NCBI RefSeq assembly: GCF_025165815.1
Contig: NZ_JAFFZE010000008.1
Location: 1-42,534, forward strand
Length of the DNA stretch: 42,534 nt
Direction: 5' to 3'
Source: Actinophytocola gossypii
GTDB taxonomy: Bacteria > Actinomycetota > Actinomycetes > Mycobacteriales > Pseudonocardiaceae
Shown: piece by piece, positions 12,227-14,024 of the stretch
How positions within the stretch are numbered: the first letter of the stretch is position 1
How the letters are laid out: each line of letters starts with the position of its first letter
Position numbers and translations under genes: made by a program
Notes under the pieces: model-generated
Database searches by the model: none
Seen by the model: the letters and a program-made list of their open reading frames with translations, nothing else
Told to the model about the DNA's origin: nothing

Positions 12227-12326
12227 GCAGCGCTACTCGAGGCCATGGTCACGCAGCGTGCGGGCAGCGACCACTCTCACACCCCGGCGACGGGCGCCCG
12301 ACCAGCGGGAGTGGAACCATGGAGGC

Positions 12327-13646
12327 ATGGGGAGAGGAAAGACCAAGCGGATCGTGATCCTCGGCGGCGGCTACGTCGGCCTGTACACGGCACTCGGGCT
12401 GCAGCGGAAGCTGCGCGGGGCCGAGGCGTCCGTCACCGTCATCGACCCGCAGCCGCACATGACCTACCAGCCGTTCCTGCCGGAAGCCGCGGGCGGTGCG
12501 ATCGAGCCGCGGCACGTGGTCGTCCCCCTGCGCAAGACGCTCAAGCGCTGCCACGTGGTCACCGCGCGGGTCACCAACATCGAGCACGCGGCACGCAGGG
12601 TCACCATCGAGGCCCCGGACGGGCACCACGAACAGGTGGAGTACGACGTCCTGGTGGTCGCGCTCGGTTCGGTCGCCCGGCTGATGCCCATCCCGGGGCT
12701 CGCCGACCAGGGCATCGCGTTCAAGACCGTCGGCGAGGCCATCTTCCTGCGCAACCACGTGATGTCCAGGTTGGACGCGGCGAACAGCACCAACGACCCG
12801 GACCTGCGCCGCAAGTACCTCACCTTCACCTTCGTCGGCGGCGGGTTCGCCGGTATCGAGGCGCTGGCCGAACTGGAGGACATGGCCCGCTTCGCCACCC
12901 GCTACTACGACAACATCGCGCCCTCCGACCTGCGCTGGGTGCTGGTCGAGGCCGCCGGCCGCATCCTGCCCGAGGTACGCGAGCGGCTCGGCGTCTACAC
13001 CGTCCTGCAGCTGGAGCGGCGCGGCATCGAGGTCTACCTGTCCACTCTGGCCAGGTCGTTCGAGGGCGGGCACGTCGTCCTGTCCGACGGCACCGAGTTC
13101 GACAGTGACACGATCGTGTGGACCGCCGGGGTGAAGGCCAACCCGGTATTGGCCACCTCGGACCTCCCGCTCGACGAGCGCGGCCGGTTGAAGGCGGAAC
13201 CGACGCTGCGGGTGACCGGCGTCGAGGACGTGTGGACCGCGGGCGACAACGCCGCCGTGCCGGACCTGTCGCGGACCGGCGAGGACCCGAACGCGCTGTG
13301 CGCGCCGAACGCGCAGCACGCGGTGCGGCAGGCGAACCTGCTGGCCAAGAACGTGATCGCCGTGCTGCGCGGACACGAGCCAACGCCGTACTTCCACAAG
13401 AACGTCGGGTCGGTGGCGAGCCTGGGACTCCACAAGGGAGTCGCGGACGTCTACAACATCAAGGCCAAGGGCTTCGTGGCGTGGGCCATGCACCGGGGCT
13501 ACCACGTCGCCAGGGTGCCCACGTTCAACCGGAAATTCCGCGTAGTAGCCGACTGGTTACTGAGTGGACTGTTACGGCGCGAGGTCATCTCGTTGGGCCA
13601 GATCAACAATCCGCGGGCCGAGTTCGACCGGGTGTCCGGGAGCTAA
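12327..13646 (+). CDS. ndh: Type II NADH dehydrogenase (non-proton-pumping NDH-2)
   Basis: A 439-aa FAD enzyme that passes electrons from NADH to menaquinone at the membrane surface. The N-terminal FAD-binding Rossmann motif is VILGGGYVGLYTA (about 10-22). The second dinucleotide motif is FVGGGFAGIEALAELE (about 170-185). TIVWTAGVKANPVL and VWTAGDNAAVP follow. The C-terminal about 70 residues (VASLGLHKG to NNPRAEFD) are the amphipathic membrane-association region. The ATG at 12327 follows GGAGG very closely; a longer frame from 12258 lacks family similarity. Two in-frame TTA codons lie near the end (13557 and 13572, residues 411 and 416). Together with the nuo operon this gives the strain two NADH entry routes. 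Confidence 0.92.
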   Translation: MGRGKTKRIVILGGGYVGLYTALGLQRKLRGAEASVTVIDPQPHMTYQPFLPEAAGGAIEPRHVVVPLRKTLKRCHVVTARVTNIEHAARRVTIEAPDGHHEQVEYDVLVVALGSVARLMPIPGLADQGIAFKTVGEAIFLRNHVMSRLDAANSTNDPDLRRKYLTFTFVGGGFAGIEALAELEDMARFATRYYDNIAPSDLRWVLVEAAGRILPEVRERLGVYTVLQLERRGIEVYLSTLARSFEGGHVVLSDGTEFDSDTIVWTAGVKANPVLATSDLPLDERGRLKAEPTLRVTGVEDVWTAGDNAAVPDLSRTGEDPNALCAPNAQHAVRQANLLAKNVIAVLRGHEPTPYFHKNVGSVASLGLHKGVADVYNIKAKGFVAWAMHRGYHVARVPTFNRKFRVVADWLLSGLLRREVISLGQINNPRAEFDRVSGS

Positions 13647-13790: not shown

Positions 13791-13864
13791 GCCCCCGTAG
13801 CCCAACTGGCAGAGGCGGCCCCCTTAAAAGGGGTGGAGTGCCGGTTCGAATCCGGTCGGGGGCA
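13791..13864 (+). tRNA. tRNA-Leu (anticodon UAA) with short class I variable loop
   Basis: A 74-nt cloverleaf. The 7-bp acceptor stem pairs 13791-13797 with 13857-13863, and the discriminator is A13864. The D stem has only 3 bp (GCC/GGC), with G18G19 at 13808-13809, as in Leu and Ser tRNAs. The anticodon stem is 13818-13822 with 13830-13834, loop CTTAAAA, anticodon 13825-13827 = UAA. The variable loop is only 5 nt (13835-13839), and the T arm is normal with TTCGAAT. CCA is not fully encoded (ACC then G). Leucine tRNAs normally carry a long variable arm, which is missing. It would decode UUA, the rarest leucine codon here. The functional counterpart in Streptomyces is bldA, which has a long arm. 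Whether it is charged with leucine cannot be told from sequence alone. Confidence 0.85.
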
Positions 13865-14024
13865 CCGCGATCCGCAATTTCTCATGACGTCCCCCCGCGA
13901 CTGTTCGCACTTGATTTGACACGTAGCGTGGCCACGATTTCGCCACGCATTCGACAACCATTTCGCGCGATTGAGGATAGTGCGCTGACCAGCGCAAACC
14001 CTGCACATGGTGCGCACGTGTCCC
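13865..14024. other. Gene-free spacer after the tRNA
   Basis: This stretch is less GC-rich than its surroundings (TTGATTTGACACG, CAATTTCTCATG). It contains no supported gene on either strand and no integrase. It could be an old integration scar beside the tRNA, but no direct repeat of the tRNA 3' end is visible in the window. Confidence 0.4.

Follow-up and report, generated by a model that had tools for sequence, protein, structure and literature searches.

A probable leucine tRNA for UUA without a long variable arm in Actinophytocola gossypii, and its counterparts in other Actinobacteria

The window, that is, the whole stretch of 42,534 nucleotides of Actinophytocola gossypii DNA analysed here, carries a 74-nt tRNA gene on the + strand at 13791-13864. 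When run on the window, ARAGORN returned a single tRNA, tRNA-Leu (taa), at 13791-13866 on the + strand, and the Rfam model RF00005 covered 13791-13864, scoring 58 bits (gathering score 29, E 4.3e-10). The stems are complete (7/3/5/5 bp), U33 is at 13824, and the anticodon UAA, which reads UUA, occupies 13825-13827 (ARAGORN); CCA is not encoded. The D arm (13800-13816, + strand), GCC-CAACUGGCAGA-GGC, has a 3-bp stem, a C13/A22 mismatch, A14, A15, G18G19 and A20a, and its leucine-type loop, AACUGGCAGA, resembles the D loop of the class II leucine tRNAs of the same genome. A 5-nt variable loop, GGAGU (13835-13839, + strand), replaces the long variable arm, so the molecule does not have the class II fold. 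U48 would pair with A15, and the discriminator is A73 (13864, + strand). The acceptor branch is of the normal 7/5 kind, with a 7-bp acceptor stem and a 5-bp T stem, and not 8/4 or 9/3. The clean 74-nt cloverleaf with U33, UAA, A73, a 3-bp D stem and a 5-nt loop that a preliminary description had read from the sequence was thus confirmed by ARAGORN, by Rfam and by our reading of the stems. All of the leucine determinants reported for E. coli (A73, A15-U48, G18G19 and A20a) are present.

The assignment as a class I tRNA-Leu(UAA) is also supported by covariation. In a set of 52 equally long class I UAA sequences that includes the window gene, 99.6% of cells were paired and double-sided changes occurred at 16 of the 20 pairs. 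Such changes amounted to 196 cells, compared with a mean of 50 in shuffled alignments and 22-40 when the partner was slid. The three D-stem pairs are invariant in this set because the search pattern fixed those bases.

The tRNA gene is adjoined upstream by a gene for an NDH-2-like NADH dehydrogenase (12258-13646, + strand; Pfam PF07992), at a distance of 148 bp. The window's next gene upstream is a UDG gene, and complex I genes lie further downstream of the tRNA.

Rfam marks 46 tRNA places in the genome (7.38 Mb in 53 contigs, 99.0% complete), and ARAGORN, run on all of them, gave 45 distinct genes. The preliminary description had called for a listing of every tRNA with anticodon UAA; the window gene was the only one found among the 45, and no second UAA gene, of class II, was found in the genome, of which about 1% is missing. 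Of the five leucine isoacceptors, the three with anticodons UAA, CAA and UAG are class I with 5-nt loops, and the remaining two, Leu(CAG) and Leu(GAG), have class II arms of 15 and 16 nt. The Leu(UAG) sequence is identical to a copy from Actinophytocola xinjiangensis (L168). Within this genome, a motif on the 3' side of the D arm, GGNAGANGC, occurs in the five leucine tRNAs only. The combination of A73, A14 and A15-U48 is also found in Ala(UGC) and in both Lys tRNAs, so specificity needs something more, perhaps the D-loop motif. A profile search found one leuS above the cut-off in this genome.

How common the short form is among other genomes was assessed with relaxed UAA patterns that admit either class and leave positions 9, 12, 13 and 23 free; the lack of a match to them is not evidence of absence. 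Two samples were used, one of 31 relatives (this genome, its genus, its family and its order) and one of 108 genomes drawn evenly from the class, which share a few genomes. Among the relatives, the UAA tRNA was class I in 26 and class II in three (G022, G028, G030); one further genome (G006) had a match of class I length that failed the stem check, and one had no match. In the class sample the UAA tRNA was class I in 50 genomes and class II in 16; in two the match failed the stem check, and 39 gave none. Class I was the commoner form where a UAA tRNA was found (50 of 67 genomes). Short loops, present in 51 class-sample genomes, measured 5 nt in 43, 6 nt in seven and 8 nt in one. One class-sample genome (G050) gave a second, long match besides its class I match, the former probably by chance. 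In all five same-genus genomes the class I gene was near-identical over the matched stretch and was the sole UAA match.

The stem check dropped rows with fewer than four of the five anticodon-stem pairs, two among the relatives and nine in the class sample, at least two of which (G006, G040) may be real. Stricter patterns that fix the D arm overlook class I genes whose D arm deviates slightly; they gave matches in 26 of the 31 relatives and in 43 of the 108 class-sample genomes. A separate class II pattern served solely to choose the later patterns. The 39 class-sample genomes that the relaxed pattern left without a UAA match of either class include members of two families (f25 and f28).

In one genus all eight UAA matches were class II. 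This genus is probably Streptomyces: all 13 plasmid records that match the tRNA of one of its loci (L221) are from Streptomyces, with 79-88% identity in the best 12 of the 13. This locus and a second one (L222) are thus probably from Streptomyces, and we refer to them as Streptomyces-like.

The surroundings of the UAA gene were compared over about 16 kb in 18 other selected genomes, six with a class II and 12 with a class I gene (one stretch was shorter). In three of the six class II loci (L218, L219 and L233) NDH-2 preceded the tRNA gene on the same strand by less than 2.5 kb (139, 188 and 357 bp); in the two Streptomyces-like loci it also preceded the tRNA gene on that strand, at distances of 5.3 and 5.9 kb, and the sixth (L220) had no NDH-2 match and a UDG gene at 66 bp. 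Five of the 12 class I loci likewise had NDH-2 ahead of the tRNA gene, on its strand and no more than 2.5 kb away. Among the other seven, it was 2.6 kb upstream in one and 84 bp downstream on the other strand in another, and five had no match. The sole same-genus genome fetched (L223) has its UAA gene at this locus. Of the 73 class I UAA genes in the named loci listed, 22 had NDH-2 on their own strand no more than 2.5 kb upstream and three had it elsewhere nearby; 48 had no NDH-2 match, 12 of these with less than 2 kb of upstream sequence. None of 58 other leucine tRNAs in the listed named loci had NDH-2 nearby. A Microcoleus class II UAA gene (L140, from a cyanobacterium and with no NDH-2 match) was left out of the locus count.

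Since NDH-2 lies upstream of the class I gene here and of several class II genes, these genes appear to be positional counterparts, with one locus holding either class, and from these arrangements we infer a change of class at the UAA locus. The distance of 5.3-5.9 kb in the Streptomyces-like loci makes the likeness weaker for bldA itself than for the three close class II loci.

The two classes also differ in their core. In the stem-checked rows base 23 was G in every class I case (51 of 51 in the class sample, 26 of 26 in the relatives) and C in every class II case (16 of 16 and three of three). Among 134 distinct leucine tRNAs, A9, C12-G23 and C13/A22 were found together in 121 of 124 full class I sequences, a count that is biased for class I because most were found with a pattern fixing positions 8 to 15. 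Three class I exceptions have G9, one of them with G12-C23. Nine of the ten full class II sequences have G9, G12-C23 and G13/A22, and the tenth has U12. Absence of the arm is accompanied by an altered core: G23 takes the place of C23, and A9, C12 and C13 usually take the place of G9, G12 and G13.

As to its origin, the class I UAA gene may have overwritten an older class II gene, having been copied from a different leucine tRNA of class I, Leu(CAA) for instance, instead of losing its arm in place. The UAA and CAA tRNAs of this genome share an identical acceptor stem and have nearly the same D arm, the base at position 23 distinguishes the classes throughout the stem-checked rows, and none of the six class II UAA genes that were fetched has the acceptor stem of the window gene. 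On the other hand, the anticodon and T stems of the two tRNAs differ, and molecules as short as tRNAs do not yield a firm tree. We hold this origin as a tentative proposal at a little under even odds; it is compatible with the gene being an ordinary leucine tRNA. One possible advantage of the short form is that it would evade toxins which recognise the long arm.

The preliminary description had offered two alternatives: either the leucyl-tRNA synthetase (LeuRS) of this organism accepts a class I leucine tRNA, or the gene is a specialised or misacylated decoder, which would read UUA while being charged with another amino acid or would serve a regulatory use. The second alternative draws on the atypical architecture and on the use of UUA, which is rare in Streptomyces and very rare here: a 442.5-kb sample of the genome contains it 25 times among 115,476 codons, in 22 of the 276 genes predicted in that sample by a simple GC3 rule. 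A regulatory use is possible. The NDH-2 gene beside the tRNA has two UUA codons, 434 and 439, neither of them strictly leucine among 35 homologues: at codon 439 we counted L 16, F 13, M 3, A 2 and T 1, and at codon 434 T 12, I 8, L 5, V 3, W 3, F 2, S 1 and A 1. Alignments with solved structures, read by eye, gave V and L at codon 219 of one gene (L211) and F and I at codon 137 of another (L208). Three further UUA sites either lay outside the aligned part (two) or were weakly aligned there (one). The residues at UUA sites are mostly hydrophobic, and leucine is not singled out.

In the same sample, seven of the 25 UUA codons fall within the 42.5-kb window (3934-42056), about three times its share. 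Some of those in the window are near predicted gene starts, which the simple ORF rule may misplace.

Against a specialised decoder stands the distribution of the tRNA body itself. We searched a collection of named genomes with a class I body pattern in which the D arm, U33 and a portion of the T arm are set, and the anticodon, A73 and U48 are free; it therefore speaks to class I bodies with this D arm and does not show the use of such bodies with other D arms. There were at least 122 matches in at least 119 loci. All of the 122 matches listed have a leucine anticodon (UAA 72, CAA 31, UAG 15, CAG 3, GAG 1) and no other anticodon occurs among them. A73 is present in all 122 and U48 in 121, and the acceptor stem has seven pairs in 119 and six in three. 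Most of the loci carry actinobacterial names. The genera include Mycobacterium, Mycolicibacterium, Nocardia, Rhodococcus and Gordonia, in each of which a class I Leu(UAA) is present, as well as Corynebacterium, Arthrobacter, Microbacterium, Bifidobacterium, Amycolatopsis, Pseudonocardia, Micromonospora, Thermobifida and Streptosporangium. With the same body carrying every one of the five leucine anticodons, with A73 and U48 conserved, with the window gene being the sole UAA tRNA found and class I the commoner form in the class sample, and with no second LeuRS above the cut-off in this genome, a specialised or misacylated decoder has no direct support and is very improbable. Acceptance of class I tRNAs by LeuRS is the better supported of the two alternatives, because three of the five isoacceptors are class I, one leuS was found and the determinants are kept.

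About a dozen of the listed loci stand under other names, for example Planctomycetota, Acidobacteria, Chloroflexi and Cyanobacteria; almost all of these are metagenome bins. A class I leucine tRNA sharing this D arm was seen in ten such records (L088, L092, L115, L117, L118, L140, L146, L163, L176, L187), named Planctomycetota, Rokuibacteriota, Chloracidobacterium, Chloroflexaceae, Deltaproteobacteria, Cyanobacteria (Microcoleus, Moorena), Acidobacteria and Thermoanaerobacterales. Nine of the ten are metagenome bins, the exception being Moorena (L163), and the Microcoleus record (L140) carries a class II Leu(UAA) as well.

Similar tRNA genes were also found in 23 phage records, of which two were checked and proved to hold class I leucine tRNAs, and in 14 plasmid records, of which the one checked is a Nonomuraea record of 11.85 Mb. 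These would fit a recently acquired mobile or phage tRNA. Yet the gene sits in chromosomal, housekeeping-like surroundings, with NDH-2 upstream and complex I genes further downstream, that are partly common to relatives; the same-genus genome that was fetched has the gene at this locus; and the phage matches are 73.6-82.7% identical (best 20 of 23), so that we give recent acquisition hardly any credence. Equally hard to credit is a pseudogene, a decayed or silent copy with a working UAA tRNA elsewhere: the genome is a draft of 53 contigs with about 1% missing, but the stems are complete, compensatory changes run through the 52 sequences, and neither this genome nor the five others of the genus gave another UAA gene.

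The two phages that were checked are actinophages. Phage Kykar has a class I UAA tRNA annotated as tRNA-Leu, and phage Genie2 has a class I CAA tRNA beside a class II GAG tRNA, both annotated as tRNA-Leu. Genie2 being a Streptomyces phage, class I bodies would seem to be accepted in Streptomyces too, where the native UAA tRNA is class II. Separately, we noted a class II, bldA-like tRNA-Leu(UAA) (L238:2505-2588) on a 399-kb linear plasmid of Streptomyces sp. MMBL 11-1 (NZ_CP117710.1), where it adjoins a gene annotated as a ScbR-family autoregulator. The PLSDB entry of this plasmid shows no tRNA, and the PLSDB table omits RNA genes.

Taken together, the leucine-only anticodons, the kept determinants, the one leuS and the covariation make an ordinary leucine tRNA for UUA the most likely identity of the window gene. 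We put at about 0.9 the probability that it is the sole such tRNA of this genome and that the single LeuRS charges it with no need of the long arm, leucylation and expression being predicted from sequence. The synthetase would read A73, the corner of the D and T loops (G18G19, A20a) and A15-U48, and would presumably treat both classes alike. Biochemical work on other systems is consistent with such a mode of recognition. As described in a recent review, leucylation in E. coli depends on A73, A15-U48, G18G19 and A20a, the long arm is not crucial, variants lacking both the anticodon arm and the long arm remain active, and human mitochondrial LeuRS charges a tRNALeu that has no long arm (PMC9976931). 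In an Agrobacterium LeuRS complex, according to a structural paper, a shorter variable loop makes a single contact, and the C-terminal domain of E. coli LeuRS touches the variable arm at several places (PMC5059758). Given these contacts in E. coli, absence of the arm might cost something.

A link between the type of LeuRS and the class of the tRNA was considered and rejected, as class I UAA genes occur with both types of leuS profile match. In most relatives this match is split near position 142 by an apparent insertion, and in five (G007, G023, G024, G026, G027) it is unsplit. Four of the five (G007, G024, G026, G027) have a class I UAA gene, and the three relatives with a class II UAA gene (G022, G028, G030) have the split type. 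Two same-genus genomes (G002, G005) have two leuS genes each, one with and one without the apparent insertion near profile position 142; our guess is that the second LeuRS might serve self-resistance to an inhibitor.

Beyond the single gene, it is likely that the class of leucine tRNAs is evolutionarily loose in Actinobacteria, the UAA gene of the NDH-2 locus having the class I form in many lineages and the class II form in some, with a set change in the core and with one LeuRS charging both. The window gene belongs to a class I tRNALeu body type that is widespread in the phylum. Genomes that combine both classes with one LeuRS provide a natural test of what LeuRS, the elongation factor and arm-reading toxins need of the arm, and it is the wider pattern across Actinobacteria, rather than this gene, that merits attention. 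ARAGORN and the phage records already name such genes tRNA-Leu, and we therefore regard the window gene as a typical representative of a variant that is widespread but has received little notice. We found no paper stating a rule for class I leucine tRNAs in the open-licence literature, so a description elsewhere is quite possible.

Short-armed leucine tRNAs have surfaced in the literature on mycobacteria. One paper reports a Leu(TAG) with a short variable loop in a mycobacterial tRNA cluster (PMC6582537), and another names Leu-2, 3 and 5 of M. tuberculosis as having long loops (PMC11541572), from which short loops in others of the leucine tRNAs of that species would follow. In the passages concerned the short loop is mentioned in passing and not as a rule for the group, and in one of the two papers the larger loop of the other Leu(TAG) is called the expected one. 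According to the recent review, tRNALeu is long-armed everywhere except in animal mitochondria (PMC9976931), a universal that the sequences of many Actinobacteria, well-known genera included, contradict. The animal mitochondrial class I tRNALeu likewise lacks the long arm, and A73 and A14 matter for its leucylation (PMC9976931). It is, however, organellar, with a partly unfolded anticodon branch, whereas the window tRNA forms a full GC-rich cloverleaf and stands beside class II isoacceptors. The allo-tRNAs, with their 8/4 or 9/3 acceptor branches (PMC7609411), are also bacterial tRNAs off the usual mould, from which the window tRNA differs in its normal 7/5 branch.

The closest comparison is with the UAA tRNA of Streptomyces. 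There the bldA gene is the textbook developmental switch, and the preliminary description had suggested that an altered version of it in another lineage would matter. The comparison is apt, because class II UAA genes occupy the same locus in some other lineages; 'altered version' does not fit, since the class I UAA tRNA is a lineage-wide form and not one altered gene. The bldA-type gene and the window gene both have the UAA anticodon, a leucine-type D loop and A73. Both have NDH-2 upstream on the same strand, the greater distance of the two Streptomyces-like loci notwithstanding, and the window gene, as with the bldA type, is the sole UAA tRNA found in its genome (about 1% missing). They differ in the variable region, where the Streptomyces-like UAA genes have an arm of 16-17 nt and the window gene a loop of 5 nt, and in the core, where the two Streptomyces-like genes available in full have G9, G12-C23 and G13/A22 in contrast to A9, C12-G23 and C13/A22 in the window gene. 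The window gene thus appears to be the positional counterpart of the class II, bldA-type UAA genes of other lineages, which would place the bldA-type and the class I genes in one positional family.
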